A stretch of 64,000 nucleotides of DNA, from the NCBI GenBank assembly GCA_015039465.1, contig MU130701.1, forward strand, positions 156,169 through 220,168. The letters are read 5' to 3'. Source of the stretch: Phlegmacium glaucopus (Eukaryota; Basidiomycota; Agaricomycetes; Agaricales; Cortinariaceae). This document shows, in pieces, positions 2,821-64,000 of this stretch (the stretch's first letter is position 1; the number at the start of each line of letters is the position of its first letter). Position numbers and translations under genes: made by a program. The notes beneath the pieces are model-generated. The model saw only the letters and a program-made list of their open reading frames with translations, ran no database searches and was not told the DNA's origin.

Positions 2821-2867
2821 CTGATTTGGATGGGAGTGGATTGGATAATCATAAAAATAAGCATGAC

Positions 2868-3954: not shown

Positions 3955-4210
3955 ACCTGAGCTTCCTACCCTGTCACCATTGCCTCCGACGTATTCACCT
4001 GGACTTCCTACCCTGTCACCATTGCCTCCTCTGACGTATCCACCTGAACTTTCTACCCTATCACTGTTACCTCCTCCAATGCATCCACCTGAACCTCCTA
4101 CCCTGTCACTGTTACCTCCTCCAATGCATCCACCTGAACATCCTACCCTGTCACCGTTACCTCCTCCAACACATCCACTTGAACCTCCTACCCTGTCACT
4201 GCTGCCTCAT
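3955..4210 (+). repeat. Imperfect tandem repeat encoding PPE(L/P)PTLSxLPPP units
   Basis: About six imperfect units of 42-48 bases each encode versions of HPPEPPTLSLLPPPM. They share a CCACCTGAAC.TCCTACCCTGTCAC core. The repeat keeps the reading frame, so copy number changes would lengthen or shorten the proline-rich N-terminal region without a frameshift. Confidence 0.8.
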
Positions 4211-20304: not shown

Positions 20305-22751
20305 ATGTCTACCGATAACCAACAGGATTTCGACAGTCGTGCAGACAAATTATGGTCGATATACAACAAGGAGGCAGAAAGTTACGACAGAGCCCTCATG
20401 GAGACTTGGAAAGACGACATGGATAGCATAATCATCTTCGTGCGTATACATTCCACCAATCCAGATTTCTTCTCATCCTGCATTAACTTCTAGGCTGGTC
20501 TCTTTTCTGCCGTTTTAACCGCCTTCCTTGTTGATGCAACCAAGAATCTCAAGCTAGATCCTACAGAGCAGACAAATGCATTATTGAGCCAAACTGTCGT
20601 TCTCCTCGCCCAGATCTCACAACAACTCGGACCCAATGGCTCTCAGACTATCATATCACCGCTCCAGCCATTGGAACAATTCAAGTTGAATCCTTCCGAC
20701 CTTCGGGTCAATATTTTTTGGTACATGAGTCTGGCTTTCAGCATCACCGCTGCGCTTGGGGCGACGCTTGTCCAGCAATGGGTCCGCGATTATCTACAAG
20801 TTTTCCAACGGCTTAGTGGTTCTTTGGAGCGCTCCAGAATGCGGCAATATCTATTCCATGGATTATCTAGCAATCACATGGCACTATTAGTCGAGTTCAT
20901 TCCTGCATTCATCCATATTTCCCTCTTCCTCTTCTTTATCGGTCTCGCTGAAAATCTGTTTTCCACCAACCACGCTGTCGCTATCACAACAATTACTATC
21001 ATCGGTTTCTGCGCTTTTTTCTACATGGCGTGTTCAGTTTTCCCTGTACTCTATCCCCAAACTCCTTTTCAAAGTCCATTGTCTAACGCTTTCTGGAGAA
21101 TGGGACAAATCATTAGCCCTCGCAAGTACACTGATAGAAACACAGCAGGCAAAATTGTACCTGTGAGCTCTGACATGGCTAAGGGCCGTTTGGAACTTGC
21201 TATGGGTCACTCTAATAATCGCATGGAGCGCGATACAGAAGCAATACGCTGGGTGCTCAGCAAAATCACGGAAGACAGCGAGTTCGAGCCATTCGCTGCT
21301 GGCATCGCAGGATCGCTGGCTACTCCATGGGGACAAGATATCTGGAAGAGTGTCTTTGGAGAAAACCCTGGAAACATGCAGTCGACACCTTATAACACTG
21401 TAATAGCTTCGGATACTCTGCAAACGCTCAAGATTCGAATCGAGAGTCTCCTGCGTACTATTTCAACCCTCTCTGACCAGCAAACTCGATTCACGCGTGC
21501 ATGCGTTTGTATCGATGCTATGGCATCTCTCACTCTACGCTTTAAGGCTGAATTGGAGCTTGACATCGATTATGACCTCATGAAGGACGTTCTTCGTTGT
21601 CTCGGTGATGAGAGAACGAGACGGGATAAAGCAGTGGTGCGAGATGCTGAGACTTCAGCCATGGACTTACGTCAGGTGTCAGGCAACCAAGTGATGATGG
21701 ATATATCGCTCGAAATAAAGTGGAAATGCTTAGTGCTGATTGGAATCAAGAAACTTTTCCAAGTCGACTTTATGGTTATGTTTGCATTAGTCGATAGAAT
21801 ACGGAGTCTGCACTCAGCGTTTTACGAGGACGAAGCCATGACTCATAGGGTGCAGGAGGTGGATGATGAATTGTTGAAGGCATGGAAAGCAGCTGGGCAG
21901 CTTTATTCAGAGCTGCGCGACAAACCAGAAGAGCAGGAGTGGACGGAAGATAGGCTGAACGAATTGGTTCCGCGTTGGAGGGACCACATTGACGCAATGG
22001 AAGAGTCCTTGTCTGCCTTGGACCAGCGAGTTTATCCCTCCATCGACTCAGATATGATCAACCTTAATTCTTACCTTTGCGGATTGCCTTTTGAGCATTT
22101 GGAAGGCATTTTCTATGAATGGCCATCAAATATGAATCTACCGGCAATGTGGAAAGGAATAAATTGGGGGACAACAGCTCCTGGCTCCTTGAAGTGGTTC
22201 ATGCCGCATCTAATACCCCCCCGCCTGTTAATTTGTCACCTCCTCGTTTGTGCCGATCCCAGACAACAACCCAACTTCGATCCTTCGACGTCTCGAGTCG
22301 ATGTAGTGGGTCTGGGTAGACTGCTGAACAATCCTGACTTGCGAAGGCTTTTTGACATTCAACGAGCAGATGAGGCAAGTGGACTTGAACTACAAGGTCC
22401 ACAACCATATGCAAATCAACTCTGGCGGTTACAAGACATAAACGAGCAAGGGGGAGTTGGATTCATGATCGAGATATTTTTCGCAACCTTCAGGTCACTT
22501 GAAGACAAATCGCTGACAGATGAGTCAAAACAAATAATTGGGGCCACATTTTGCGAACAATTATTGACAACGGAAAATCTGAGTATTTTCAGACCGCCAG
22601 TCGAGGATTCTTGTGGTCGCTGCGCCAAGAATTAAACATCCGATGGAACTCCCCACCTGTATGTATTATCTGGTTGTTGGAGGATCTATTTAACGAGAGT
22701 GATGAGGACCAACCTGAAGAGGAGACAGAGGAGACCGGAGAACGAGAATGA
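20305..22751 (+). pseudogene. DUF6535 family membrane protein, copy 2 (C-terminal frameshift)
   Basis: Exon 1 20305-20439 (MSTDNQQDFDSRADKLW...), intron 20440-20493 (GTGCGT...TTCTAG), exon 2 from 20494 reading AGLFSAVLTAFLVDATKN. The reading frame is open to 22635 (758 codons). Two extra T residues near 22551 (ACATTTTGCG against ACATTGCG in copy 3) shift the frame, so the normal tail (IIDNGKSEYFQTASRGFLWS...LLEDLFNESDEDQ, to 22751) is out of frame and is replaced by a short unrelated end. All membrane segments are intact, so a protein with an altered C-terminus is possible. Exon 1 lacks the short first intron found in copies 3 and 4. Confidence 0.85.
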
Positions 22752-25259: not shown

Positions 25260-27716
25260 ATGTCTACCGATATCGAACAGCAAAATGGTGTGTTAAATAT
25301 AACCTGATTCGACACTGGCATGTGCTCACATTCAGTTTCTTTGCAGATAATCAACAGGATTTCGACGGTCGTGCAGACAAATTATGGTCGATATACAACA
25401 AGCAGGCAGAAAGTTACGACAGGACCCTCATGGAGACTTGGAAAGACGACATGAATAGCATCATCATCTTCGTGCGTATACATTCCATCAACCCAGATGT
25501 CTTTTCAGAGCTCATTTGCCTATTAGGCTGGTCTCTTTTCTGGCGTTTTAACCGCCTTCCTTGTTAATGCATCCAAGAATCTCAAGCCAGATCCTACAGA
25601 GCAGACAAATGCATTGCTGAGCCAAACCGTGGTTCTCCTCACCCAGATCTCACAACAACTCGGACCCAATGGTTCCCAGACTATCATATCACCGCTCCAG
25701 CCACTGGAACAGTTTAAGTTGAATCCTTCCGACCTCCGGGTCAACATTTTTTTGTACATCAGTCTAGGTTTCAGCATCACTGCTGCACTTGGGGCGACAC
25801 TTATGCAGCAATGGGTCCGCGATTATCTACAAGTTTTCCAACGGCTTAGCGGTTCATTGGAGCGCTCAAGAATGCGGCAATATCTGTTCCATGGATTATC
25901 TAGCAATCACATGGCACTATTAGTCGAGTTCATTCCTACGTTCATCCATATTTCCTTCTTCTTCTTCTTTATCGGTCTCGCTGAAAGTCTGTTTGCCACC
26001 AACCACGCTGTCGCTATCACAACGACCACTATCATCGGTTTCTGTGCTATTTTCTACATCGTGTGTTCAGTTTTCCCCGTTCTCTATCCCCAAACTCCTT
26101 TTCAAACTCCATTGTCTAACGCTTTCTGGAGAATGGGACAAATCATCAATCCTCGCAAGCACACTGATAGAAATACAGAAGGCAAAACTGTCGCTGTTAG
26201 CTCTAACATGGCTAAGGGCCGTTTGCAACTTGCTATGGGTCACTCTATTAATCGCATGGCGCGCGATACGGAGGCAATACGCTGGGTGCTCAGCCAAATC
26301 ACGGAAGACACCGAGTTCGAGCCATTTGCTGTTGGTATTGGAGGTTCGCTGGCCACTCCATGGGGAGAAAATACCTGGGAGAGTATCTTTGGAGGGAACC
26401 CTGGAAACATGCAGTCGACATCTTATAACGCTCAGGCTATAATAGCTTCGAATACTAGTACTGTGCAAACGCTCAAGATTCGAGTCGAGAGTCTCTTGCG
26501 TTCTGTTTTAACTTTCTCTGACCAGCAAACTCGATTCACGCGTGCATGTGTTTGTATCGATGCTGTGGCATCTCTCACTCTAGGCTTTAAGGCCAAATTG
26601 GAGCTTGACATCAATGATGACCTCATGACCTCTGTTCTTCGTTTTTTTGGTGATGAGAGACAGAAACGGGGGTTGCAGGAGGCTGAGATTTCAGTTGGCG
26701 ACCAAGTGATGGATACATCGCTCGAAATAAAATGGAAGTGCTTAGTGCTAGTTGGGATGAGGAAAAGATTACCATTGGACCGTCAGGATTTTGTCTTGAG
26801 GTACTCTGATATAGGTGATCTGTACTCAGCCAAATGCAAAGAGGAAGCCACGGTACGGGAGGTGCGTTATGAATTGTTGAGAGCTTGGAGAGTAGCGTGG
26901 CAGCTCTATTCAAAGCTGCGCGATAAACTAGAGGAGCAGTGGACGGAACATAGGCTGAACGAATTAGTTCCGTCTTGGAAGAACGACGTTGGGGAAATGG
27001 AAGAGTCCTTGCGTGACTTGGACCAGCGAGTGCATCCCTCAATCGACTCAGAGGTGGTCAAACTTAACTCCTTCCTTTTCTCGTTGACACCTTCTAAGCA
27101 TTTGGAAGGCATTTTCTATGAATGGCCATCAAAGCTGAATCCACCGACAATGTGGAAACGACTAAATTGGGGGACAAAAGCTCCTGACTCCTCGAAGTGG
27201 TTCATACCACATTTAATACCTCCCCGCCTGTTTATTTGTCACCTCCTGATTTGCGTCGATCCCAGACGACAACCCAACTTCGATCCTTCGACGACCCGAA
27301 TCGATTTAGTGGGTCTGAGTAGACTACTGAACAATCCCGAGTTGCGCAGGCTTTTTGACACTCCGAGCCCACCAGCAGACGCAAGTGGACTTCAACTTCA
27401 ACCTCCACAACCATACACAAATCAACTCTGGCGGTTCCAAGACATAAATGAGCATGGCGGAGTTGGATTCATGATCGAGATGTTCTTTGCAACCTTCAGA
27501 TCGCTTGAGGAGAAATCGATCACACCCGAGTCAAGACGACTAATTGAGGCCACATTGCGAGCAATCATTGACAACGGAAAATCTGATTATTTCAAGGAAG
27601 CCAATCGACGATTCTTATGGTCGCTGCGGCAAGAAATAAACATCCTACGGACTCTGGAGGAGACCAAGACCCCACCGAAATCTATTCTACAGTTGTTGTC
27701 GGATCTATTTGACTAA
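25260..27716 (+). CDS. DUF6535 family membrane protein, copy 3 (intact)
   Basis: Exons 25260-25287, 25347-25471 and 25527-27716 join in frame to 781 codons including the stop: MSTDIEQQN|DNQQDFDGRADKLW...DMNSIIIF|AGLFSGVLTAFLVNASK. Introns are 59 and 55 bp with GT...AG ends. The N-terminal third matches the DUF6535 domain (fungal, function unknown): four hydrophobic segments at about 46-66, 122-142 (IFLYISLGFSITAALGATLM), 181-205 (FIPTFIHISFFFFFIGLAES) and 213-235, with the conserved cytosolic RLSGSLERSRMRQYLFHG between the second and third. The remaining roughly 540 residues are soluble and helical, without a domain I recognise. Likely an integral membrane protein. It is one of three intact paralogues in the array. 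Confidence 0.88.
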
Positions 27717-30257: not shown

Positions 30258-32780
30258 ATGTCCACCGATATGGAACAGCAGAACGGTGTGGTTAAACCTA
30301 ACCCAATTCGACATGTACTAATCTTCATTTTTGTTACAAGATAACCAACAGGATTTCGACAGTCGTGCAGACAAATTATGGTTGATATACAACAAGGAGG
30401 CAGAAAGTTACGACAGAGCCCTCATGGAGACTTGGAGAGACGACATGGATAGCATGATCATCTTCGTGCGTATACATTCTGTCAACCCAGATGTCTTTTC
30501 GGAGTTCATTTACTCTACCAGGCTGGTCTCTTTTCTGCTGTTTTGACCGCCTTCGTTGTCGATGCATCCAAGAATCTCAAGCCAGATCCTACAGAGCAGA
30601 CAAATGCATTGCTGAGCCAAACTGTGGTTCTCCTCGCCCAGATCTCACAACAACTCGGACCTAATGGCTCTCAAACTATCATATCACCACTCCAGCCACT
30701 GGAACCGTTTAAGTTGAAGCCCTCTGACCTCCGGGTCAACATGTTTTGGTACATGAGTCTAGGTTTCAGCATCGCCGCTGCAGGTGCGGCGACCTTTATA
30801 CAGCAGTGGGTCCGCGATTACCTACAAGTTTTTCAAAGGCTCAGCGGTTCTTTGGAGCGCTCAAGAATGCGGCAATATCTATTCCATGGATTATCTAGCA
30901 ATTACATCCCGCTAATGGTCGAAAGCATTCCTGCACTCATCCATATTTCCTACTTCCTCTTCTTTATCGGTCTCGCTGAAAGTCTGTTTGCCATCAACCA
31001 CGCTGTCGCCATCACAACGACTACTATCATGGGTTACTGTGCTGTTGCCTACATCACATATTCAGTTTTCCCTGTACTCTATCCCCAAACTCCTTGCTAT
31101 ACCCCATTGTCTACTGTTTTCTGGAGAATGGGACAAATCATCCACCCTCGCAAGCACAGTGATAGAAATACAGAAGGCAAATGTGTACCTGTGAGCTCTG
31201 ACATGGCTAAGGGCCGTTTGCAACTTGCCATGAGTCACTCTAATAATCGCATGACGCGTGATACAAATGCAATACGCTGGGTGCTCAGCAAAATCACAGA
31301 AGACAGCGAGTTCGAGCCATTCGCTGCCGCTATAGGAGGATCATTGGTCACTCCGTGGGGAGAAGATATCTGGAAGAGTGTCTTTGGCGAAAACATGCAA
31401 TCGACACCTTACAACGCTGCAATAGCTTCGAATACTGTCCAAACACTCAAGATTGGAATCGAGAGTCTCCTGCGTTCCGTTTCAACCTTCTCCGACCAGC
31501 AAACTCGATTTACGCGTGCATGTGTTTGTATCGATGCTGTGGCATCTCTCACTCTAGGCTTTGAGGCTAAATTGAAGCTTGATATCGATTATGACCTCAT
31601 GAACTCCGTTCTTCGTTTTTTTGGTGATGAGAAAAAGAGACGGGATAAACGAGTATTGCAGGAAACTGCAGCTTCATTTGGTTCAGCCATGAACCTAGGT
31701 CAGCTCTCAGGCAACCAAGTGATGGATACATCGCTCGAAATAAAATGGAAGTGCTTGAAGCTGATTGGGATGAGAAAAATCTTACAATCGGACCATTGCG
31801 CTTTTGTTCTGAGACACCCTGATAGACCTAGTCTAGTGGATGATGAATTGTCGAAGGCATGGAGAGCAGCTGCGCGACTTTATTCAGAGCTACGTGATAA
31901 ACCAGAGGAGCAGTTGACGGAAGATAGGCTGAACGAATTGGTTCCGCATTGGAGGGACTGCATTGATGCAATGGAAGAGTCCTTGTCTTCCTTGGACCAG
32001 CGAGCGCCCTTCATCGACTCAGATATGATCAACCTTAATTCCTACCTTTGCCGATTGACAGCTGTTGATCATTTGGAAGGGATTTTCTACGAATGGCCAT
32101 CAAGGATGAATCTACCAGCAATGTGCGAAGGAATAAATTGGGGGGCGACACCTCCTGATTGGGATCCTTTGAAGTGGTTCATACCGCATTTAATACCACC
32201 CCGCCTGTTAATTTGTCACCTCCTCCTTTGTGCCGATCCCAGACGACAACCCAACTTTAATCGTCTGACTTCTCGAATGGACGTAGTGGGTCTAGATAGA
32301 TTGCTGAACAATCCCGAGTTGCATCGGCTTTTTGACACTCAACTAGCAGACGGGACAAGTGCACTTGAACTACCATGCAGGGCGGGTAGACTTAGACCAC
32401 CAGGTCCATATAAAAATCAAATCTGGCGGTTCCAAGACATAAGCGAGCATGGAGGAGTTGGATTCATGATCGAGATGTTCTTCGCAACCTTCAGGTCGCT
32501 TGCTGAGAAATCGATGACGCGCCACTCAGAACAACTGATTATGGCTACATTACGAGAAATCAGCGACAACGGAAAGTCCGAGCATTTCAAGACCGCCAGT
32601 CGACGATTCTTGCGGTCGCTGCGGCAAGAAATATGGAACTCAAACCAGGAGGAAACCAAGATCTCACCGGAATATATTATGTTGTTGCGGAAACTATTTG
32701 ACGATAGTGACGGGTGTCCCAATGAAGAGAGAGAAAAGGAGGAAGAGGAAGAAAAAGAAAGGGGAGGAGAACGAGAATGA
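30258..32780 (+). CDS. DUF6535 family membrane protein, copy 4 (intact)
   Basis: Exons 30258-30285, 30341-30465 and 30522-32780 give 804 codons including the stop. Introns are 55 and 56 bp. The protein begins MSTDMEQQNDNQQDFD and has the DUF6535 membrane region: FWYMSLGFSIAAAGAATFIQ, RLSGSLERSRMRQYLFHG and IPALIHISYFLFFIGLAES. The C-terminal tail is longer and more acidic than in copy 3 (a run of Glu/Lys encoded by GAGGAAGAGG words). It is closest to copy 5: both share KILQSDHCAFV and LTAVDHLEGIFYEWPSRMNL and lack the VQEVDDELLK-preceding stretch of copy 2. Function unknown; membrane location inferred from the hydrophobic segments. Confidence 0.88.
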
Positions 32781-33754
32781 GTGAATAGGCATAAGTGGAT
32801 CTTCTCTATTACTATTCGCACTTGCTTTTGTGGCTCCATTTACAACGCTGTTGCTCCTCTCTCTTACTTACTGACATTGATGTATTTCCCATCAACATTA
32901 TGCTTGGTTTCGTCTTTTTTCTGTCCGTCGTCGGGGGGTGCGCATGCTAAGATGGGGTATAGATGCAAGTATAGTAGGTGCAAGTGCATAATAAGATATC
33001 GTTCGTCTGTACATCCCACTGACTGATTATAGATATCTGCGCTAAAATATACGTGTTGCACATAGCTTCACTGACTTGCCACCATCCTCTTGTCATCGTC
33101 ATCCTCTATGAGTACTTCTCCTCGTCGTAATCTTCTCTTCCGAAGGGTCGATCTTGACTTTGCGAGAGGTCAATGAGGAAAGCTGTCAAGACAGCCGAAA
33201 ATAGACTGGCCTACAGCAAGATCAATGAAAGAGTGAGCTGAATCTGATATTATATATTTCTTTCTAATATTTATAATTCATATCGCACTCGCTTATATAT
33301 ATATTCTTTCCGTCTGTCGACCACGACTTGTAGATTTATTTATTTACTTAAAGGAACGCCATCCTCTTTTTTTTTGGTTTTGGCGTTTCTTACCCACATA
33401 TATGATGATTATCTATTTCTTTTAAACGAATGCATTCATCAGAAAATACATCGAATACATCTCTGCCGTTCGGGGATTCGTCCAAGCAGCCTATCCAAAT
33501 CTGCTAATTTAAAAACTCTCTAGAATGAGATTGAGTCTAGGATCCGCTCAGTGCACACCGATTGTATACAGAAGAAGCACAGACGTAAAAATGGTTTAGA
33601 CCTGAGAATGAAACCCACTCAATATTACGAAGACATTGACAGCGAAAAGTGTTGTACATACCAGTACTAAGGTAGGTGGACTATGTAAGTCGGTGTCGAG
33701 ACACGGGAAGAATACAGATGAAAAGCGAGTGCGATATGAATTATAAATATTGGA
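32781..33754. other. 3' flank of DUF6535 copy 4, left flank of the DIRS element
   Basis: No gene. The first part matches the flank of copy 5 (GTGGATCTTCTCTATTACTATT, ACTGACATTGATGTATTTCCC). 33490-33600 is the reverse complement of 23270-23390. The left junction of the DIRS element is TATAAATATTGGA|ATGGCATCAC. Confidence 0.65.
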
Positions 33755-33905
33755 ATGGCATCACATGACGCAAGTCGTGTGAACCTTCTCGAGAACAACA
33801 GCGCACGAGGGTATTTACTTTTCTCATCTTTTCTCTTTACAACTTCATACCCCGTCTCCAAAATTATTACTACCATACTTTCCTACTATCTCACACTCTT
33901 TCTTT
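33755..33905 (+). repeat. DIRS split direct repeat A1
   Basis: A 151-bp repeat beginning ATGGCATCACATGACGCAAG and ending CACACTCTTTCTTT. It is identical to A2 at 38789-38939. It contains the 5' transcription region of the element; a TATA box is not obvious. Confidence 0.9.
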
Positions 33906-33952
33906 ATATTATACAAATCATATTAATCCTCTACCTCCACACACACATAATC

Positions 33953-35702
33953 ATGCCTCGTCAACCTCGTCAACGAGCCCATTACACCAAACTACTTAGC
34001 GCCTTACGCAAAACAGAACTAATTCGACTGGCAGACGACTTCGGAGTGCCTGCTGAAGGCTCAGTTGTCGAAATTCGCTCAAGACTCAAAATACATTTAG
34101 ATGAAAACCGAGAAAATCTTTTCCGCAATCCTATGTATCGGGCACTTTACCCAAGGCGCCAACACCGAGGACCCCAGCCTCCCCCAGTATCACCTCAGCC
34201 CGAAAATGGGACACCATCCGTCAGGATGTCAATTTCCCCAGAACCATCAAACCATTCCGCCGCTTCATGGGGTGGTATTGTAGACCCCCAATTTCAGCCA
34301 CCACCAATCACTCCTCCTCGCCATCACACTCCAGCATCTTCTATGAATTCCATAGAAAGGTACTCTCCTGTACCGCAGCATGAAGCTGCCATAGAACGTA
34401 AGCAATTCTATATGCTTTGTTATCATATTTCCATATACTATATGTATTATCCACTTGTCGGATATTTTGGCTCGAACTACAGTTCAACCGCGAGGATATG
34501 AACATCCAATCTTATGCCATTTATAAGCCTATTAAGGCTATATATATATAATTTCCTTTATCGTCACAAGTCAATCATTTACAACATTTATTAACTATCA
34601 CATTATCATAGTCCCTGTTGATGCATTACATGCCATCCCTGACGAGCTGGTTTTTGCACCCGCTATTGTCCCAGCGTTACATACTGCTATCGTGGATGTG
34701 CCACATCAAATGAGCAACACTCCTCTTCGTAAACGACCATCGCGTATCCCTGGTTTTACAGCCAATAATGCTGCGTTCCTCGTACCAGATCATATTCGGA
34801 AAAAATTCGTAGACGGCTGGAATTCCCATGTCCCGCTCATGTACCTTACCGATAAAGGATGCATCTTCAAAAGTAAAGCACCAACTAACACCTCACATGA
34901 TCTGCTTACTATCGATGAGTCGAATGGTCGAATCATGTCCACCGCAAAGCCATTATCCGATGACGGAGAGCTCGACATCACTTTTGACGAATGGCACCAG
35001 GCATGGAGACGTCTTCATGACCTCATTGGTACCTTCCTGCCAGACGAAGCTGGAATGTGGCAGGCCCATTATTCATTTATCCTAAACAACGACAACAGGG
35101 CCGAAATGTGGCCTCTATATCTTGCTTACGACATCGAAATTCGAAAACGAGCCACACAATTCCCTATCGACCCATCACAATTCTCTATAGGAATTTGGAA
35201 CGATTTAGAGACACGCTACATGGCTAAGAAAGTATACACACAAGTCCAAACCGACTTGAGGTTCCAATCAGCTCATGCTGGTCCATCCAATATAAATCAT
35301 TCCCCTTCCCATACTTGTCTCCATCCATATGCCCATCAAAATAGCGAACATGCTCAACCTCCAGCACGTGGTTCCTTTCGAAACCAGCCATTTCGAAACC
35401 TATCCCAACGTTTTGCGCAGTCAAACCACGCCAAAGCAAGATGCATTTTCTGCGGCGATACCACTAAATCTCACATATCCCGGAACTGTACTGCTACCAA
35501 CCTTGTCAACGGCACACCATGCCACTTACTTAAGCTCGGGCCAGCCGGTTCTAGACAGGACAAGGCGGGAAAACTTTATTGTTTCGCCTGGAATGGATTC
35601 TCCGGTTGCGACCAGAACCCATCCTGTCAACGAGGCGAGCATTGGTGCTCCCTCTGCGGAGCCAAAACTCACAATGCCCAACAATGCGGATCCGCTTCGT
35701 GA
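33953..35702 (+). CDS. DIRS ORF1, gag-like, spliced
   Basis: Exon 1 33953-34397 and exon 2 34612-35702 join in frame (GAAC|GTAAGC ... ATCATAG|TCCCTG) to 512 codons including the stop. Residues about 12-53 (LLSALRKTELIRLADDFGVP, VEIRSRLKIHLDENREN) look like a SAP-type DNA-binding helix pair. The C-terminus is Cys/His-rich (KARCIFCGDTTKSHISRNC, LYCFAWNGFSGCDQNPSCQ, EHWCSLCGAKTHNAQQC), consistent with zinc binding. Position and organisation indicate the nucleocapsid-like protein of a DIRS element. It overlaps the RT frame by about 370 bp if that frame starts at its first ATG. The intron is in a retroelement gene whose RNA must also serve as genome. Confidence 0.75.
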
Positions 35703-42811: not shown

Positions 42812-45282
42812 ATGTCTGCCGATAACCAACAGGATTTCGACAGTCGCGCAGACAAATTATGGTCGATATACAACAAGGAGGCAGAAAGTTACGACAGAGC
42901 CCTCATGGAGACTTGGAGAGACGACATGGATAGCATCATCATCTTCGTGCGTATACATGCCACCAATCCAGACATCTTTTTAGAATTCATTTGCTCTACC
43001 AGGCTGGTCTCTTCTCTGCCGTTTTAACTGCCTTCCTTGTCGATGCATCCAAGAATCTCAAGCCAGATCCTACAGAGCAGACAAATGCATTGCTGAGCCA
43101 AACCGTGGTTCTCCTCGCCCAGATCTCACAACAACTCGGACCCAATGGCTCCCAGACTATCATATCACCACTCCAGCCACTGGAACCGTTTAAATTGAAG
43201 CCTTCCGACCTCCGGGTCAACATTTTTTGGTACATGAGTCTAGGTTTCAGCATCGCCGCTGCGAGTGGGGCGACCTTTGTACAGCAGTGGGTCCGCGATT
43301 ACCTACAAGTTTTTCAAAGGCTCAGCGGTTCTTTGGAGCGCTCAAGAATGCGGCAATATCTATTCCATGGATTATCTAGCAATTACATGCCGCTAATGAT
43401 CGAAGGCGTTCCTGCACTCATCCATATTTCCTACTTCCTCTTCTTTATCGGTCTCGCTGAAAGTCTGTTTGCCATCAACCACGCTGTCGCTATCACAACG
43501 ACCATTATCATGGGTTACTGTGCTGTTGCCTATATCACTTATTCAGTTTTCCCTATACTCTATCCCCAAACTCCTTGCCATACCCCATTCTCTAACGTTT
43601 TCTGGAGAATGGGACAACTCATACGCCCTCGCAAGCACAGTGACAGAAATACAGAAGGCAAAATTGTCGCCGTTAGCTCTGACATGGCTAAGGGCCGTTT
43701 GCAACTTGCTATGGGTCACTCTAATGATCGCATAAAACGCGATACGGAGGCAATACGCTGGGTGCTCAGCAAAATCACGGAAGACAGTGAGTTCGAGGCA
43801 TTCGCTGCTTCTATTGGAGGATCAGTGGTCACTCCATGGGGAAAGGTTATCTGGAAGAGTATCTTTGGAGAAAACCCTGGAGGCATGCCGTCGACACCTT
43901 ATAACACCGCAATGGCTTCGAATAATGTGCAAACGCTCAAGACTCGTATCGAGAGTCTCCTATGTTCTGTTTTAACCTTCTCTGACCAGCAAGCCGGATT
44001 CACGCGTGCATGCATTTGCATCGATGCTGTGGCATCTCTCACTCTAGGCTTTAAAGCTGAATTGGAGCTTGGCATCGATTATGACATTATGAACTCTGTT
44101 CTTCGTTTTTTTGGTGATGAGAAAAAGAGACGGGATAAACGAGTATTGCAGGAGGCGGCGACTTCATTTGGTTCAGCCATGAACCCAGGTCAATTTTCAG
44201 GCAACCAAGTGATGGATACATCGCTCGAAATAAAATGGAAGTGTTTGAAGCTGATTGGGATGAGAAAAATCTTACAATCGGACCATTGCGCTTTTGTTCC
44301 GAGACACTCTGATAGGCCTTATCTGGTGGATGATGAATTGTTGAAGGCATGGAGAGCAGCTGGGCAACTTTATTCAGAGCTGCGCGATAAACCGAAGGAG
44401 CAGTTGACAGAAGATAGGCTGAAGGAATTGATTCCGCATTGGAGGGACCACATTGATGCAATGGAAGAGTCCCTGTCTGCCTTGGACCAGCGAGCGCCCT
44501 TCATCGACTCAGATATGATAAACCTTAATTCCTACCTTTGCCGATTGACAGCTGTTGATCATTTGGAAGGGATTTTCTACGAATGGCCATCAAGGATGAA
44601 TCTACCAGCAATGTGCGAAGGAATAAATTGGGGGGCGACACCTCCTGACCGGGATCCTTTGAAGTGGTTCATACCACATTTAATACCACCCCGCCTGTTA
44701 ATTTGTCACCTTCTCGTTTGTGCCGATCCCAGACGACGACCCAACTTTGATCGTTTGACGTCCCGAATCGACGTAGTAGGTCTGGATAGATTGCTGAACA
44801 ATCCCGAGTTGCATCGGCTTTTTGACACTCAACTAGCAGACATGACAAGTGGCCTTGAACTACCATGCAAGGCAAGTAGACTTAAACCACCAGGTCCATA
44901 TAAAAATCAAATCTGGCGGTTCCAAGACATAAGCGAGCATGGAGGAGTTGGATTCATGATCGAGATGTTCTTTGCAACCTTCAGGTCGCTTGGGGAGAAA
45001 TCGATGACATGCCACTCAGAACAAATAATTATGGCTACGTTACGAGAAATCAGTGACAATGGAAAGTCTGCACATTTCAAGACTGCCAGTCGACGATTCT
45101 TGCGGTCGCTGCGGCAAGAAATAAACATGCTATGGAACTCAAACCAGGAGGAGACCAAGACCCCGCCGGAATATATCATATTGTTGCGGAAACTATTTGA
45201 CGATAGTGACGGGCACCGTCCTAATGAAGAGAGAGAAAAGGAGGAAGAGGAAGAAAAAAGGGGGGAGAACGAGAATGAGTGA
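42812..45282 (+). CDS. DUF6535 family membrane protein, copy 5 (intact)
   Basis: Exon 1 42812-42946 and exon 2 43003-45282 join in frame (DSIIIF|AGLFSAVLTAFLVDASK) to 805 codons including the stop; the intron is 56 bp. As in copy 2, the start is MSADNQQDFD without the extra first intron. Membrane segments: FWYMSLGFSIAAASGATFV, VPALIHISYFLFFIGLAESL and AITTTIIMGYCAVAYITYSV. The C-terminal half is nearly collinear with copy 4 (PPDRDPLKWFIPHLIPPRLL, QDISEHGGVGFMIEMFFATF), and the tail is again Glu/Lys-rich. The close match to copy 4 implies a recent duplication or gene conversion. Function unknown. Confidence 0.88.
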
Positions 45283-46290: not shown

Positions 46291-46673
46291 ATATAGATTG
46301 GCCCTTCCAATGTAATACCATTATGCACTGTTGATTTATAAAATGTTATATCATTATATGTTGCCCTTTCTATCAATAAAACTTACTGTTTATATGTCAT
46401 GCTTCTATTGTAATTTATAGATCGCTGTTGTGTTTATTGGTTCACCACCATTGATATATAAAATGTAATACCAATTCAGGCCTTTCCATCAATAAAACTA
46501 TTTATACATCACACTTGCTTATTGATCAATAAAATAGATTGTCATTGCGTTACCATTGATTTATAAAATGTAGTAGTCTTCATTACACATTGCCCTTTTG
46601 GGCATTTCCGTCAATAAAACATTTATACATCAGTGCTTAGAATGTAATTTATAGATCACTGTTGTGTTTATTG
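46290..46673. repeat. Degenerate tandem repeat, TTGATTTATAAAATGTA / TCAATAAAAC units
   Basis: Units of roughly 110-130 bp carry ATTGATTTATAAAATGTA, then CCTTTCCATCAATAAAAC, then TTTATACATCA, then GTAATTTATAGATC and GTTGTGTTTATTG. At least three units are visible. The array is cut at 46673 by a transposon and continues, mirror-written, at 46808-46883 and then normally from 47741. Confidence 0.75.
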
Positions 46674-47740
46674 CCATCAGGAAAAATGACTTCTGCCCTA
46701 GGCTGTCCTGAAATGTCCTGGGGTGCCCCAGGCAGCTCAGGGCGCTCAGGTCAAGAGGTTGCCCTGGGGTGCAAGTTACCTATGTATGAAAAGTCTTAGG
46801 CTGTCCTTAAAATAACTACCGTTCCGGACTTTACCGTTATATATTTACTTATCATAATGTAAAATATTTAGTTGGTACCACTCGGTAGTCCTTTTTACTA
46901 AAACCGGGATCCATCGGAACCCATTAAACAATCATAGTGTAGTGATGAGTCCTGTAGGGTCCTGTGGGGTCCTGTGGGGTCCTGTAGGATCTCGTCGTGT
47001 CCATTTTAAACTCACAATGTGTGAATAGGTTCCTGTGGAGTCCTGTTGGATCCTGTCGTATCTATTTCAAAACTCACAGTGGGTAAAAGAGTCCTGTGGA
47101 AATCACATAGGACCACGTAACTGGTAGACCTAATTTAGTGTAGTCCTCCGGGACCCTCAGGGAATCTTAAATACTTAAAACGATCTTTTAGAAATTGGCG
47201 GCGCAGGTCCTTTCATAAAACGTCAAAAGAGTTATTCCTCTCGACGATAATTATATTAAATTTGTATAAGTCCCAGGATTTTGTTAAGAGATGGTAGAAA
47301 TTTTTTAAAGGAAAAAACCTTAAATACATTAGATGGGACTGGGTCGTGGTATACGAACTTTAGTACGAATAGACACTAGTACACTGGTTACCAGACACGC
47401 GGTAGGTTTTCTATATATTTGGTGGGTGTTAAAACAAAAGAATAAAGGATGAAGGGGTCATAATATGATCATATAAATACATAGTGATAAAATAATAATA
47501 AAATAATGATCATATATACTACAAATCTTATTAACTTATATTAAAATAATAATAATAATAATAAGACAACACACTCTGGTGAGTTTATAGACCAAATATA
47601 TACAAAAGATCGTAGTCTAGGTTTCCCTGATTCCGACGGAGTCCTACGAGAGTCCAACGGAGTCCAACGAGAGTCCAACGGAGTCCTGTCGAGAGTCCAA
47701 CGGAGTCCAACGGGGAAAAAAAAAAAAAAAAAAAAAAAAA
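46674..47740. mobile_element. Small transposon with CCATCAGGAAAAATGA ends, mostly mirror-written
   Basis: The left end is CCATCAGGAAAAATGACTTC. The partner end is found only if the block 46808-47740 is read backwards: it then ends ...AAAATCATTTTTCCTGATGG, the inverse of the left end. Interior words such as CTAGGCTGTCCTG, GGGTGTCCTGGGG and CAACCTGAGG are iterated. After mirroring, the host tandem repeat resumes right after this end (CTCACCATGGTTGATTTATA). Length is about 990 bp; no coding capacity; superfamily unknown. Confidence 0.7.
46808..47740. other. Mirror-written block 3 (reversed, not complemented)
   Basis: Read right to left without complementing, the left end of this block gives GTTGATTTATAAAATGTAAT and CCTTGCCATCAATAAAA, matching the host tandem repeat units at 46550-46620, and joins smoothly to 47741. 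The transposon end inside (window 46884-46908) likewise only makes sense in mirror reading. The right edge is a run of 26 A. Any gene call inside, for example a minus-strand frame at 47541-47762, is meaningless as printed. Confidence 0.8.
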
Positions 47741-55695: not shown

Positions 55696-57047
55696 ATGCC
55701 AGCGCCATCCTGGGCAACACCCTTTCAGAAAGAATTCCTATTGGCTCGGCAGGTCAATTTCAGCCAAGCTCAAGCTGACAAAAAGCTCAGTACATTTTGG
55801 GCCGGACTCTACCATGATTTCTTTGTGAGAAGGCCTGACAAGGCATCTGAGTTAGTGGATGTCACTACTGGGGGTAAGCAGCCAGAAAAGAAGAAATGAA
55901 AGAAGAAGAATAAACAGTCCAATTTGCTGGTTGTTGAGCTTTCTCATGACAAATGGGTATCTACCTGGAAAAATGTGTTTATTTTGTTTCTATTGAGATT
56001 GAGGAATCTAATGGTTTAGCAGAATATCTATAATTGGTATAACAGCCACAGTCTCAATAAAGGATGGAGGTCAGGGAAAGTCGGCACGGTGAAAATCAGT
56101 ATTGCTCCATCTGCTTCACAACTCCCCACCGAATTACATATGTACTCAAAGTGATATTATGAGACACAAGTTAAGGATGCAGTTGATGCCAAGATTGGTG
56201 ATCAGAACATGGACTCCGAGAACAGGATTGCAATCATCAATAGATATCTAGCCAGAATCTACAGGAATGAGTCAGACAAGACCAAAGAAGAGATTTGTGG
56301 GGCACTGGAGGAGGAGAGGATCACAAAGGAGGTGGCAAAGGAAGCCAATTGAGCAATTGTCAATGTTAATGGAGAATTGAACACATCTGAGATCATCTTG
56401 TAAGATTTTGTCCTGATTATACATTGTTATGTAGAGCCCAAGTGGCTGTGCATGAAATGATACAAGACTTCCTGGAGGCTATGGAAAAGCGTACAACATG
56501 TTTTACAGTCCTAGGGGGAGGGTGTGATCCCACCAAAGAGGGAGAAATTTGAACAATTGGTATACATGTCAAAAAGAACACCTATGGCCAGACCTTCGCC
56601 AAGGCAAACCCTAGTTATCAAGATTATGTTTTAGCCCCATTCTCCACTTTCTTGCATTCAGTTTTCCATAAGTGATGTAATTATGGATAACTCAAGGTCA
56701 CTAATCTTTTATCTTCAGCAGAATCTGAATGCCATAAATTTAGCAATAATAAAGCTGATGACTCATGTGGTTCCTCACCCTCCGATGATGACTCGAGCAA
56801 TTCTATTCCTAATGCTGACCCACCATCTTTTGTTCTCCCAATCTCACCAGGCAACCCCCTTATTTTGGCATCAGGTCCTAATTCTGGCATTATTCATAAT
56901 GCCAATCCAGTCATTCTCCCCTCGACAATGTTCGTCTCTGACCCACCCTCTGTTGTTCTCCCAAGTTCAGGTCCAGTCATTCTCCCCTCGACAATGTCCG
57001 TCTCTGACCCACCCTCTGTTGTTCTCCCAATTTCACCAGTGATATGA
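55696..57047 (+). pseudogene. Agaricomycete repeat-family gene (WATxxQxxxL type), decayed
   Basis: Begins MPAPSWATPFQKEFLLARQV and NFSQAQADKKLSTFWAGLYH, the typical start of a repetitive agaricomycete family of unknown function. After stops it continues YETQVKDAVDAKIGDQNMDS, NRYLARIYRNESDKTKEEIC, then VAVHEMIQDFLEAMEKRTTC, FTVLGGGCDPTKEGEI*, KKNTYGQTFAKANPSYQDYV and LAPFSTFLHSVF. Several in-frame stops (after PEKKK, after KEAN, after GEI) mark it as dead. The end (56700-57047) is Ser/Pro-rich with a 66-bp in-frame duplication encoding SDPPSVVLP..GPVILPSTM. The family usually follows or accompanies the type seen at 3677-6484. Confidence 0.5.
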
Positions 57048-57743
57048 TTTAAATCTGCATAAGCATGGTTTTCACAATTTTATCTATCATTTCAGCATAA
57101 ATATTAATTAATGCACCAATAACTGGCTAATACAACTGATAATAAACAAGGGAATCAGAGTTGTCTACCCTACAACTGCTGATTAGACCTATTACTGTGC
57201 GACTTAAATGCATATAGTTAATAAGTGTGGTCAATAGACTATCATTTGTTACACTACAAATTGCATGTCTGGATTAAAACCAATAAATCCATGAATATCC
57301 TTATAGACTTGGCACAGGAAAAGTTAAATAAACAATATTGGGTTAGCAAATGTCATGGGGTGTGATTGTGGAGCAACAGAATATTATTAATAAATATTCA
57401 GGGGAAGGTTGGTGCCCTAGCAACAGTGGAAGCAGAATAACCAAGATAGTGGAACCATGTGATTGTGTGGGAATCATGATGATGAAGGATAGGGGGAGTG
57501 CTGAGCAATCATAAAGATTGTTTCCAGGCACAATAGGCACAGTTACCATCAAGAGGGGTGGAAACTACCTAAAATTAGCAACATGGGGCTAAAAATAGAC
57601 AACCCCTATATTTTCAGGAACAATGTGTGCACATGGTGCCAGAACCAAAGCAAGGGTACCAGGAACCAGTATATCTATTTTTGGACATTATCTATTTTTA
57701 AATATCTCAAATGTATAAAATACCTCCCAGGCTTTGTAAATAG
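57048..57743. other. Noncoding or heavily decayed stretch before the copia element
   Basis: No complete gene. Plus-strand pieces such as GEGWCPSNSGSRITKIVEPC and GSAEQS appear near 57400-57510 and could be the remains of the C-terminus of the preceding gene. The sequence reads normally until about 57743, where mirror-written sequence begins. Confidence 0.45.
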
Positions 57744-59438
57744 TCTTTTCTTAATCCCAAGTTCGCGAACCGTTAGCTGGTAAGACATAAGAAAGCTGTT
57801 AGCCCACTACTCGTATGGTAGCAGCGACAACGTTGCCTACTATACCGTCAGTGTAGATTTTCTTTTCGTCTACGACTCGCTAAATTTAGGTTCTAATTTT
57901 GAATGACCCTCTATTGACTATTGCCTGGGTAATTTACCAAGGATCCAAAGCTTTAGTCTGCGTTAGCGCTCCGATCTTGCTATAGGTAGTTAGTTGTACG
58001 GATATAACTTCGGTACCAGCTTTTTAAATCTGAATGATTACGCTCTGCGCAAAGCTGAGGTTACCTTGTTTTGCGGGTCAAAAGTTGACTAGTCCCTGGT
58101 AGATGGGGTTTAGTCGAACGTTTTTACTGTCCTCAGGGAATGCGACTTCGATATCCGTCGCAAAATACCGGACGTCAACAAAGCTCTGGGCTATAGCGAA
58201 TACGTTATCCACATAACAGCGTCAAATAGGTTTTAGGCCCGGTTCGTGTGACCCTTCCTGAGTTTGCTCAGTAGCATATAGAGCCTAGATGTTTTTTGGA
58301 CACCGAGTGGAAACCACCTTTCTGTTTATGGGAGCAGCTTCCGAAAACACTACGTCTGACCCGGTCAGTTTCGGTAGCGGTGAGCTATAGCCCTATGAGT
58401 AAGGTAAAGCCACAACCTCGCTAGAGAACCTCAAGTTTTTTCGTTGTACACCACCGCAACAGCTCATGCCTTCGTCTTATATAACGTGTTTGTGTACGAC
58501 GTTTTCTTCGTGACACCGACGCGTCAAAGCAGTTGCTTTAGTCTCCTTATGTTCTTTCTGGATACCACTACTTGACACTATTAGTCCCTCGGTAACGTGA
58601 GCGCTTCCTATTGTTTAAAGTGAGTGCTTGCTTTGTATAACTGGAGTCCATGGTGAAATAGGCCCTTCGACACCTTCTATTCTTCTATAGCTAGTTGATG
58701 TATGGTTGGCTACTCTTACATAGCCTATAGAAGTGCTTCCGTGATCGCTCCGGGTTCAAGCACCCAAAACAACTTTTCGACCCCGACCCCCTTAACCTCT
58801 TCCTAGCACAAATTTGAGTCAACATTGTTGTTGTTCTTCAGAATAACAACTAGCTATTGCGCTAGTCGTGCAAGCAGTAGTGTACTACTAGCGCGTGTGC
58901 TATGTCTATAGTTACCTCAGATTGAGCTCCCCCTCACAACTCCATATGTTCAAAACTGAGCAACTAAAGTAAGGAATTAGAAAATAATAGAATGTAGAAT
59001 ATAGAATAGCAAAGAAAATAGAACACAGTGTAAATGCCAGTGTAAGTAATGAGTGCTTAAAATGACATCGTTCAGAGTTGAAAATGGTTTTCAACTCTGC
59101 ACTCAAGTAAGTAAATGATAAAATTAATGAAGCAGATTGTATATGGATCAGTAATAAAGTAACGAGATCCATATTATTAATTATATTTTGAAAATGGTTT
59201 TCAACTCTGAGTAATAAAGTAACGAGATCGACGCTTTATAACGTTGTAAATTGTGTTGTGTTGAAAATATTGTTAAGTTGTTAACAATGTTGTTCAAGTT
59301 GTGAGACTCTTTGACTAAATACAAGTTATGGGACTAGAGTTTCTGTTCACAAGAACGAGTTACAGATTCTGTCACTCGACATGATCCAACGTTTACTCCC
59401 CCCTTTCTTTCTTAGGTTAAAAGAAAAAAAAAAAAAAA
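57744..59438. other. Mirror-written block 1: copia RT end, RNase H, 3' LTR and flank
   Basis: Complementing the printed strand base by base, without reversing, gives from left to right: ELGFKRLAIDHSVFFRQSGD, VAVATDDMAVTSKRKADAER (the RT active-site DD box), WFLGFEIRRNREARTISINQ, YAEAIGSVLWPAVVSRPDIA, then after a one-base indel EGFCDADWASQSHRHSISGY, STEAEYIAQTHAAKEALWLR, CDNQGAIALAKDNKFHSRTK, VSDIFTKALARPKFVGFVEK and a stop near 58807. These are unmistakable copia RT and RNase H signatures in the right order. They are followed by a polypurine tract and the LTR. In ordinary plus or minus reading the block is gibberish. Confidence 0.92.
58936..59247. repeat. Copia 3' LTR, mirror-written
   Basis: Complement-only reading starts TGTTGAGGTATACAAGTTTT and ends AATATTGCAACA, matching the normal 5' LTR (62721-63031, read on the minus strand) almost base for base. 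It is preceded by CTCGAGGGGGAG (58924-58935), a polypurine tract, and followed by TTTAA, the target duplication. Confidence 0.9.
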
Positions 59439-60956
59439 CTTTGTTTCGAGATGAAGGTTCTCTTCTTCTCACTCTGTAAGTTTAACATGTTTGCTCTGCT
59501 TCGAGAATAACTTTGTGTTTGACCTTTAGCATATTTCTAACACGCAAGCCTAGCACCCCCTCTCAAGGATAGTGCTGTTTACTAACTAGTAGTTCTACTA
59601 TTTCCTTGATTTGCTCTTGAATGACAGGTACTAAGAGGTGGGGTTTTACCATGTCGGCTTGCACCGTACGCGTGAGCTCGACTTGCGCGTGCTCGAGAGG
59701 AAAACAGTAGGCCAAATGGAGCAAAGGATACCCTTCTTCGGTACTTTGTGTGTTGCACCGACGTTTTGTCTTGAGGACGTGCACGCAATCTACCATTTTG
59801 GGGTATGCTTTACTACGTATTCGCTTTTGGTATGGAACCTCCATAAGTCCTTAAACCACGTCGGCGGATGCATTTCCTAAACAGCCGACCCTTTAATCTG
59901 CGAGCTCGAGTCGAACCTGTAAAACAGCCAATACTGAGGCTTAGGTTTCCTATATCCTAAATGACCGGACCTTTTACAAGTCATTGACAACTCTCTTTGC
60001 ACCAAAAGTTGGTTTTATTGTATGCTTGGTTGCTTTCACAATTGTAAGGACTTCTAAGTGACCGACTCCCCCTCTTCCTATTCCAGTAGGTCGTTAGAAG
60101 GTTGTGACGGCTTTAGTGCTTACTTTTGTGACTTCTAAGTTTACAAGTTGGATAGTCACTTTGAGTTAGGTTTGAGCTTGGTCTGTTTTGAATGGTCCTC
60201 AGATATTAGCTGGGGTAAAGGCTTGGATAAGGCCTGAGGTATCTGCTACTGGTTTGAGGAGTTATGCCTACGCCAGTAGCTCGAGCGTTTGGTTTTCCTC
60301 GTATATTTCATTAGGTACTTCCAGAATGTCGTTTAAATGAGGTAACACTCTTGGATCTTCTACTGCTTTTAGTCAATGAGTAGGAACTGCTCCTACTGTT
60401 ATTGGAAAAGCTACTGAATGGTGGACTAAAGCGAGAGCATCCACCACAATAAGGGCTTGGTGGTAGCGAACTACTTCGGGATGCTCCGGGTTTGCGCTTT
60501 GTAACCGTTCGCCGTGACCTTATGCTTTAATCAGTTGAGCTTTTCTACCCTTGAACCTAGTAGCTTCTGAATGGTGGTGTTGTGTTCCGTTATGGAACGT
60601 TGCTCCAAGATTCTTGGTTTTCTCCCGGACTACCACTTCAAGTTTCAATGGCACAAGCGTAGCAGCGTCCACCTGTATCTGTTCAACTTCCACAATTAAT
60701 GTGGCTTTGAAAAAGTCGACGACGCTTTTACGGACGGCATGCTCAGCAGGATCGATTACGTCGACTCGTTCTGACCCTTTAGCTTGTACATCTGCATTTT
60801 TCGCGAATGGAGTTGTGCGGTGAATTGCTTTGTTAAATGTACTCTGGTGGAGCACCACACAACTTTGGCCCGGTTCTTCCCTTCCAGACGTCCAACAACT
60901 TTCCGAACATACCCAATTTCGTTCGGCCATCTCCCACCATAGAGCTCTACCGAGTT
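59439..60956. other. Mirror-written block 2: copia integrase end and RT start
   Basis: Complement-only reading gives ETKLYFQEKKSETFKLYKRD, ETQTGNRIKIVRSDRGGEFL (second integrase catalytic Asp), DSPPQNGTAERGMRTRAERA, GLPRFLWEEAMKHTTWLQNR and, at the right edge, LYGLKQAGRGWYLEMAQ (RT). It attaches at its left edge to DDATR of the normal part (60957) and at its right edge to ELGFKRL of block 1. The minus-strand frame 60520-60963 and the plus-strand frames printed here are accidental. Confidence 0.92.
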
Positions 60957-62716
60957 GCATCATCTATACGAGCTGCCACGTAGTAATGGCCATTTAGACT
61001 CTTTACTGACGCTGGTCCCCATAGATCCCAATGGACACGATCACCATATTTCGCGGCCCTAGTTTCTGATTCCTTCGGAAAAGGAAGTCTATTGGACTTG
61101 GCCTTCGCACATGCTTCACAAAATTCAATTTTCAAATTGATATCAAGGTCGATACCAGTAATGAGTCCCTTCAAGATCGCGTGCTTGATAGCGTGTACTG
61201 ATATGTGTCCGAGTTTTTGATGGGCTTCATTAATGCTCATTTTTTGAGAAGCTATGTTTGCGTGGTGCGTGTTTTTGGATGGGTCCGGAGCAGGGATAGG
61301 ATATAAATTGTTCACCCTAGGTATAGTTGCGATAGTACGTCCGTCTCGCTGTTTGATCGTGCACATACCCTTATTGAATGTCACTAGACATCCAGCCCTT
61401 TCCAGCCTACTGATAGATATAAGGGTAAAGGCTAGATCTGGTGCATGAATTGCGTCCTTAAAGGTTGTTTTGGTCCATGTTGACCCATTTGGGAGTTCTA
61501 GGAGCATGTCTCCCATTCCAATAGCTTTAACCCTTCGTCCTTCCGCTGTAGTAATTTCACGATCGATAGGACGATAATTGGTAAACTTGGAGCGATCCGG
61601 AGAGTAATCACTACTGGCTCCACTGTCAATGCATCCACCCAATTTGGATTTCGGGACTGGCAACGCATTCGCAACATCGACATAGTCTGATGTACAGGTA
61701 AAGGCGAATAATTTATTGTCTTCCTCATCGACTGCGATCGTTGCTGATTTGACCTTTTTAGACTTCTTTTGTCTTGGCCCTTGACCCTCTTTACCACCTC
61801 CTTTGGACCAACAATCCGGTTCCTTGTGCCCTTTCTTTCTGCAGTTTCCACACGCATCATCAGATTTGGTTTTACTTTGCTTTTCGAACCTTTTCTTGTT
61901 GGCGTGTCTAGGTTTTCCACCCCTTTTTCCATGGGCAGCAAGCGCGGACTCGGCGTTTTTGCCACGTTCATCGTTGATCGAACGATGCTGAGCCTCCTCG
62001 ATGATGAAGGCAATTAGGTCATCCGTTTTCATATGTTGTGACTGGCCTCCTGAGAGACTGCTGGCTCGTTCGGCTGCCGTAATGGTTTGGAGAGTAGGTC
62101 AGTAAGTTTCAGGTAATGATGACATGACGATGATATTAAATCGTGTGTCAGATAATGTCGATCCCATTTTCAGAAGATTGTCGCGTCGTTGCGTCATTAG
62201 CTGAAAATGTTGCTTGAGTTCTGCAAGATGAATCTTTGGGTCTTCATTCTCTACCAGTCTCATACTCGAGAGCTGGTCTTCTGCGTCGAGGAGGTACAGT
62301 GTACTTTTCGTCGTCGCGTCGGCTTTTACAACCTTCCACATGTCTTCAGCTGATGTTAAATTCTTTATTTTAGATCCGAGACGTGTTGAGGTTGTTGAGA
62401 GAATGATGTGTTGAGCTAAGTATTCGCATTTCTCGAATTCGACCATTCTAATTTCTTTGGTTTCTATTTGCTCTTCCGTAGCTGGTGTCTTCCTATCCGA
62501 TAGGACTAGGATTTCATCAACGACAGCGTACGGTTTAGGCGCGGTTGCAGTGCCTTCTACGTGTCTCCAAAGACCCTTCGAACCCATAGCCTTCTGTATT
62601 CTAGGCTCGTAATCAGCCCAATTACTTCCGTCGTCACAGAGCTTGGGAATAGCAAGGGTTGTGGTGTCTGTAGTGGAGTTCATCGATAGGTTAGAGATTT
62701 TGTCTTCGGGGCCCAT
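60957..62716 (-). pseudogene. Copia gag, protease and N-terminal integrase (normal part)
   Basis: The ATG at 62716 (MGPEDKISNLSMNSTTDTTT) lies in the probable primer-binding stretch GGTTATGGGCCC directly after the LTR, so the functional start may differ. Gag contains LAIPKLCDDGSNWADYEPRI and LLDAEDQLSSMRLVENEDPK. At 62099-62101 a TGA interrupts one continuous frame (PETY*PTLQTITAAERA). Then come the zinc knuckle CGNCRKKGHKEPDC, the protease motif CIDSGASSDYSPDRSKF, and the integrase His-Cys domain (HQKLGHISVHAIKH, CEACAKAKSNRLPF) with the first catalytic Asp in VHWDLWGPASV. The frame stops artificially at DDATR (60957), where the mirrored block begins. One real stop therefore inactivates this copy. 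Confidence 0.88.
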
Positions 62717-62720
62717 AACC

Positions 62721-63031
62721 TGTTGCAATATTTTGCAGCTAGAGCAATGAAATAATGAGTCTCAACTTTTGGTAAAAGTTCTATATTAATTATTATACCT
62801 AGAGCAATGAAATAATGACTAGGTATATGTTAGACGAAGTAATTAAAATAGTAAACGAATGAACTCACGTCTCAACTTTTGGTAAAAGTTGAGACTTGCT
62901 ACACTAAAATTCGTGAGTAATAAATGTGACCGTAATGTGACACAAGATAAAAGAAACGATAAGATATAAGATGTAAGATAATAAAAGATTAAGGAATGAA
63001 ATCAACGAGTCAAAACTCATATACCTCAACA
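62721..63031 (-). repeat. Copia 5' LTR, 311 bp
   Basis: On the minus strand it starts TGTTGAGGTATATGAG and ends ATATTGCAACA. Inside are two copies of CTCAACTTTTGGTAAAAGTT and two of AGAGCAATGAAATAATGA, internal repeats about 75-120 bp apart. TTAAA (63032-63036) is the flanking target duplication. Confidence 0.92.
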
Positions 63032-63445
63032 TTAAAGTCATAGCAGAAGTTTGAGTCTTCTTGTGTATGCAATTGTGTTGAAGTCATAACAGAAGCAAGG
63101 GGTCTTCTTGTGTATGCAATTCTGTTGAAGCTGTAACAAAGTCTTGGACTTTTGTGTACACAAGTTTAAATCAAGCAGTAAAGTCTTAGGAATTCTTTGA
63201 CTGATTGTTGGTGCAAGCTATAAATTGCAAAGCTACTTAAAAGTTTGATCATCCTTGAATTGATCCAAATTATTGTTGTTATTGTGTGTACTAGTTGAAG
63301 TGAAATTCAAAGTCTTGGAAAGGTTATACTTTCTAGAAAACCCCACTTGCATTATAAGATTGTATAAAGTATTGATTGAGTTATTGTTTTGAGTAGAGAT
63401 TTTATAATCTTGAAAATACACTTTTTCTCAACAACCTCTGTGCAG
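63032..63445. other. Noncoding flank with repeated AAGTCATA/GTTGAAG words
   Basis: No gene. Three imperfect copies of GTGTATGCAATT.TGTTGAAG..GTAACA occur at 63060-63150. The stretch ends in a probable 3' splice site (CTCTGTGCAG at about 63445). Confidence 0.5.
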
Positions 63446-64000
63446 TTACATCACCGGATAGTGCCATTATTTTGACATTGAGTCCTGTTTTGGTTGCTGA
63501 GGCTCCTTTGACACTCATCGTGAACGAGGCTCAGGTTGACAATGAACAAATCAGGATGATTATTGATATTGAAGTCCCTTGCAAGCAGGTTGAGAAGCAG
63601 CCCTACAGCGGGTCCACATTTTCAGGATGTGTTGACTTCTACGGTGATGCGACTATATCAGATATCAGGTCAATCGGTGTTGCATTGTCTGGATGGCACA
63701 TTGAAAATAGAACAATGGGAATGAACATGGGCAATGGAATGGACTCATCTATGATAGGAGTGAGCTGTGTTGAGAATGGAACAACAGGGTTGGACTTGGG
63801 TAATGGAATAGACTGGAGCTTTTTTCAGGGAAGCTCATCTATGATGCAAGGTGATAGGTCGGACTGGAGCTTTTTGGGTGGATTTGACATGTTGTTGTTT
63901 GGAACAGGCAATCAGGCTTTTTTTGATGCAAGTTCTATACCTGTTTGTAACTCACCTTTTAAAACATGTTCTGTGTTTGTCAAGAACCTAGCTCAGGCAC
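63446..64000 (+). CDS. Unrecognised coding exon running off the window
   Basis: From about 63446 the frame is open to the end of the window (about 185 codons) without a stop: ITLSPVLV-like start, then APLTLIVNEAQVDNEQIRMI, IDIEVPCKQVEKQPYSGSTF, SGCVDFYGDATISDIRSIGV and a repeated Gly/Asn/Asp region (MGMNMGNGMDSSM, GLDLGNGIDWSFFQG, SDWSFLGGFDMLLF). The left edge is set by an acceptor-like CTGTGCAG. No start codon is visible, so upstream exons lie to the left, possibly separated from it by the copia insertion. I do not recognise the family. Confidence 0.5.

Follow-up and report, generated by a model that had tools for sequence, protein, structure and literature searches.

Copia sequence written in reverse character order in the Phlegmacium glaucopus assembly, almost certainly an assembly artefact

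According to the part of its description available to us (English et al. 2012, PMC3504050), the program PBJelly extends the flanks of contigs into gaps, and gaps that stay unclosed are shrunk and keep their N. Patching with PBJelly after ALLPATHS-LG assembly of Illumina data is the procedure given for JGI hybrid assemblies in a paper on mycorrhizal genomes that mentions Phlegmacium glaucopus (PMC7550596). The P. glaucopus assembly presumably belongs to these PBJelly-patched hybrids; the portion of PMC7550596 at hand names the pipeline for hybrids in general. A second paper that uses the species reports, in the portion at hand, Velvet, AllPathsLG or Falcon, finisherSC and Quiver for its own genomes (PMC8480192). 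The blocks described below sit where PBJelly would extend contig ends into gaps, but they are written in reverse character order, which is absent from the accessible part of the PBJelly description (PMC3504050).

The locus lies in a stretch of 64,000 nucleotides (the window) of P. glaucopus, a member of the Cortinariaceae also called Cortinarius glaucopus, on a contig of 797118 bp (C241), and the genome searched was the assembly that contains this contig, 60.5 Mb in 259 contigs. Its element resembles Ty1/copia: it has gag, integrase, reverse transcriptase (RT) and RNase H, its LTRs are of the TG..CA type and its target duplication is 5 bp long. It differs from Ty1/copia in the 3' 3.2 kb, which as printed are an impossible DNA rearrangement of copia. 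An inversion produces the reverse complement of a segment. As in an ordinary inversion or misassembly, a segment stands here in the wrong orientation, but the reverse complement of its first block is not copia (longest stop-free run of 107 aa), and an ordinary inversion was rejected on this ground. The result upholds the original prediction, which had stated that no rearrangement could yield this string.

Copia sequence in the mirrored blocks

The features of the locus are the following (mirrored features have no strand).

57040..57745, plus strand: left part of a host interspersed repeat (family of ~1.3 kb), normal orientation; 57745 is read as the last base of the left contig
57746..59438, no strand: mirror block 1, string-reversed in place (complement without reversal), 1693 bp
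57747..58811, no strand: second half of copia RT and RNase H, readable as complement without reversal only
58936..59247, no strand: mirrored 3' LTR of the copia element
59248..59438, no strand: the host repeat continued in mirrored form, with its match ending at 59424; bases 59248-59252 are one copy of the 5-bp target duplication
59439..60950, no strand: mirror block 2, string-reversed in place, 1512 bp, with the C-terminal part of integrase and the first half of RT
60950..62098, minus strand: Pol_BBD and gag_pre-integrase frame, normal orientation
62102..62698, minus strand: gag frame (Retrotran_gag_2), normal orientation
62721..63031, minus strand: 5' LTR, normal orientation
63032..63456, plus strand: right part of the host repeat, normal orientation; it begins with TTAAA, the second copy of the target duplication

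Translation of 57744-59438 in four readings showed that complementing without reversal opens one stop-free frame of 356 aa, against longest stop-free runs of 55 aa on the plus strand, 107 aa in the reverse complement and 77 aa upon reversal alone. The 356-aa frame matched RVT_2 (PF07727) in Pfam with 1.4e-18 and copia-type pol proteins with a best E value of 4.5e-190, at 79% identity and 100% query coverage. The Pfam search of the element pieces, each searched apart, matched no RNase H profile, and the RNase H call rests on the motifs pointed out in the original prediction and on the similarity across the whole 356 aa. In the comparison of the window with itself, the string-reversed LTR at 58936-59247 was 97.4% identical to the normal LTR at 62721-63031 over 312 columns, and a polypurine tract, read directly in the sequence, adjoins the inner end of the mirrored LTR. 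The original prediction had described this RT/RNase H frame, the LTR and the polypurine tract in a block at 57744-59438 and had proposed as a check that the string be reversed and searched for copia. The check gave protein and profile matches, and the observation of mirrored copia is confirmed. The right end of the block, 59438, held as well, and the left end was moved to 57746 because 57040-57745 is ordinary host repeat.

Block 2 abuts block 1, and the remainder of the element, 60951-63031, is in ordinary minus-strand orientation. The complement-only frame of block 2 is 519 aa long, extends partly beyond the block and matched RVT_2 (6e-35) and SH3_retrovirus (4.7e-18); the string-reversed block was 98.1% identical to a copia locus elsewhere in the genome (L020). 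Across the pieces of the element, the Pfam domains were Retrotran_gag_2, gag_pre-integrs, Pol_BBD, SH3_retrovirus and RVT_2, and the gene order is that of copia, with gag, integrase before RT, and RNase H. The boundary between the blocks splits RVT_2: block 2 holds profile positions 3-134, and block 1 positions 139-243. In two relatives in normal orientation, on C134 (75677/75692) and C105 (491245/491230), 14 bp separate the equivalents of the inner block ends, indicating that the window lacks 14 bp at the junction of the blocks. In L020 the equivalent of 60951 is found at 3587 and that of 59438/59439 at 3588, so that block 2, when reversed in place, fits its own contig edge (60951) to the base.

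Chance or simple-sequence symmetry that mimics copia upon complementing was also considered. A scan of the whole window for string-reversed stop-to-stop frames of at least 180 aa recovered 373 and 584 aa at the mirrored blocks, and the occurrence of such frames of up to 274 aa elsewhere in the window speaks for chance and means that ORF length alone is no proof. Nevertheless, the copia protein match (E 4.5e-190), the RVT_2 match of block 2 (6e-35) and the LTR match (97.4%) refute this explanation, as the original prediction had already argued, and we consider its probability to be practically nil. The string-reversed frames found outside the blocks, of 274 and 190 aa (3639-4460 and 33720-34289), overlap longer normal frames and are probably due to base composition. 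The only other string-reversed self-match of the window, at 46556-46873 (65 columns, 81.5%), lies amid local repeats and is perhaps a simple-sequence symmetry.

The insertion site in the host repeat

The normal copies of the host repeat define the left edge of block 1. Among the 246 candidate places of the normal form, 40 were scored, and 40 of the 42 rows other than the window itself end at window positions 57743-57745. In seven fetched loci with normal copies of the repeat (L002-L008), the repeat continues from 57745 into the mirrored stretch, on a path that leads from 57745 to the string-reversed 59424..59248 and then to 63032; the alignments were less complete in L004, which reaches only 59269, and in L005, which aligned from 63072. 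Position 59248-59424 is therefore a mirrored continuation of the host repeat and not copia, and the last 191 bases of block 1 are flank. An end of block 1 at the LTR was rejected, as the repeat continuation within 59248-59438 is likewise mirrored.

In L002, L003, L006 (both copies), L007 and L008, 5 bases are shared by the two flanks. These bases are the target duplication TTAAA, which is found on both sides of the element, before TGTTG at the beginning of the left LTR (string-reversed) and after CAACA at the end of the right LTR. The window carries 14 extra bases, a run of A, at the junction between 57745 and 59424. Since the repeat and the TTAAA duplication are restored by reversal in place, block 1 is the local sequence of this copia insertion.

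Mirrored sequence in the rest of the assembly

The printed form of 57746-60900 gave 38 rows in this genome, counting the window itself. Comparison with proteins in both string orders assigned eight other mirrored copia loci with RT/RNase H or integrase (C14, C123, C50, C164, C105 at 202 kb, C158, C116 and C206), the best row of each being 71-94% identical to the printed form of the window, and ten other loci (L020-L027, L029 and L030) matched copia in normal order only. On C50 a normal gag is followed by mirrored parts, and on C116 (L016, G000:C116:117929-121689) a single copia element has a normal RT and then a mirrored RNase H in a locus that contains no N run, perhaps a closed gap inside a single gene. 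The host repeat, which is unrelated to copia, is mirrored at ~17 places (19 rows, with neighboring rows merged) when searched with 717 nt from the start of the reversed repeat, which is 1303 nt long; the normal form has 246 candidate places, of which 40 were scored.

The recurrence in divergent copia elements (eight loci) looks at first sight like a family, as if a biological process of parallel-polarity copying had written mirrored DNA and the mirrored copies had been inherited. To our knowledge, no polymerase or recombination is capable of making such DNA. The edges of the blocks vary among loci and coincide with N runs in the tested cases, and a heritable mirrored copia family was dropped for this reason. 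In addition, the string-reversed pieces share 98-99% identity with relatives in normal orientation, which leaves no place for a separate mirrored lineage. We regard a biological origin as extremely improbable, and the mirrored stretch is almost certainly not a biological feature.

An N run was present in 14 of the 20 regions fetched around mirrored copies. Eight loci contain normal and mirrored parts of one copy of the repeat with a definable block, and in seven of them the block is bounded on its other side by an N run. All seven gap-bounded blocks that could be tested, 650-2188 bp long, rejoin the normal repeat with their gap-side base when reversed in place, at a step of 1 (L038, L040, L041 and L042), 2 (L031), 3 (L045) or 11 (L033) repeat positions. 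This count excludes L032, in which the alignment itself supplied the edge; the second block of L031, which is not at an N run; and L035, L036, L039, L043 and L044, in which a gap is present and the same copy of the repeat has no normal part. The mirrored copia stretch of L011, L013 and L014 likewise ends at most 5 bases from an N run. In the seven tested cases the blocks thus reach from a contig edge to a gap, and in the window the two blocks reach from presumed contig edges to one another at 59438/59439.

Some loci speak against gap filling as the source. The second mirrored block of L031 (~1424-3097) rejoins the repeat, yet ~380 bases scored as normal lie before the N run; in L036, L039 and L044 the remainder of the partly mirrored repeat was found in neither form within the locus; and the mirrored-repeat loci L032, L034, L037 and L046 contain no N run, which requires that a gap was closed at each of them, as at the window locus.

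A reversal that arose later, in the handling of the record by the database or locally, and not in the gap filling of the project, would agree with the ORF of block 2 in printed orientation, for which the search of public proteins returned no match, a result that neither proves nor disproves the public order. Nothing in later handling, however, would make a reversal stop at N runs and contig edges, as is seen in several loci. The contig also agrees in length with the public contig (797118), which is weak evidence since reversal in place does not alter length. We consider later handling very unlikely.

A probable gap-filling error and its consequences

The evidence points very strongly to an assembly artefact, in which long-read extensions into a scaffold gap were written in reverse character order. 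We infer that a gap existed at the window locus and that a gap filler was the agent; the program would be PBJelly, or a wrapper of PBJelly that made the reversal. The scaffold gap would have been located between 57745 and 60951, inside the copia element inserted in the host repeat, and long reads would have lengthened both contig ends into the gap, the left one by 1693 bp and the right one by 1512 bp. Both extensions would have been stored in reverse character order without complementing and would meet at 59438/59439, leaving no N run at this locus, whereas comparable blocks at several other loci end at a surviving N run. The split of RT and the inner ends 14 bp apart are as expected of two extensions that nearly meet. 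The reading of the original prediction, that no rearrangement can produce the string and that it is hence an artefact of writing, is supported by the tests made.

No report of reversal without complement in gap filling was found in the literature, as judged by titles and the openings of abstracts. Patterns of mirrored 16S and 23S rRNA gave 0 matches each in GTDB contigs, a search that says little, being made without a forward-pattern control in a collection without fungi. Whether the reversal is a general defect of one gap-filling step that has spread through many public hybrid assemblies is a tentative proposal, to which we give somewhat less than an even chance. If true, stretches written back to front at gap edges would conceal repeats and gene ends from the standard two-strand, six-frame searches.

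As biology the mirrored blocks mean nothing; they matter for data quality, as a systematic error with many occurrences in a single assembly. Their sequence is genuine, but two-strand, six-frame searches cannot read it in the order in which it is stored, and hence transposon counts, the dating of LTRs and the ends of genes beside gaps in this assembly may be distorted. Elements with one mirrored LTR cannot correctly enter a count of dated LTR insertions. According to the part of PMC7550596 at hand, LTR insertions have been dated in this species.

Orientation asymmetry can flag mirrored stretches without homology. For this we used a 4-mer log-odds model of forward against string-reversed sequence, with both strands pooled. 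The model was non-negative in 52 of the 56 held-out 1-kb windows of 1-56000 (the training sets also included 60951-64000), and when trained on 1-56000 alone it was negative, the sign of reversed sequence, in each of the seven 500-bp windows between 57501 and 61000, of which the two outermost include some normal sequence. The normal stretch 62501-63000 was also scored negative, and single short windows are therefore no proof. Among the 26 gap edges in the fetched loci, 17 had negative scores, three of these as slight as -6 or -7, and 9 had positive scores, which speak against the gap-filling reading; these scores do not give a genome-wide rate, since most loci were chosen for mirrored sequence. 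One of the positive edges, that of L011, scored +1 although it is mirrored by homology.

The mirrored stretches of the repeat showed 3.46% mismatches and 9.97 gap openings per kb (16756 columns), and the normal ones 1.81% and 5.23 (2487 columns), in samples unmatched for copy age. Such a doubling might be given by long-read fill. The long coding frames of the mirrored blocks of the window are unbroken.

An array of DUF6535 (PF20153) genes occupies 20494-22632, 25527-27713, 30453-32777 and 42934-45279 of the window. A normal piece of one of these genes, used as a 701-bp probe, gave 31 rows in the genome, with 15 on contig C241 and 6 of those within the window. A reversed piece of the DUF6535 gene gave one match, C78:387212-387532, at 79% over 311 bases. 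Mirroring is thus independent of sequence family, as it was found in copia, in the unrelated repeat and in this DUF6535-like fragment. The fragment is so far the only sign of reversal in host genes besides repeats and, judging from its similarity to the DUF6535 family, the reversal may perhaps also hit a host gene.
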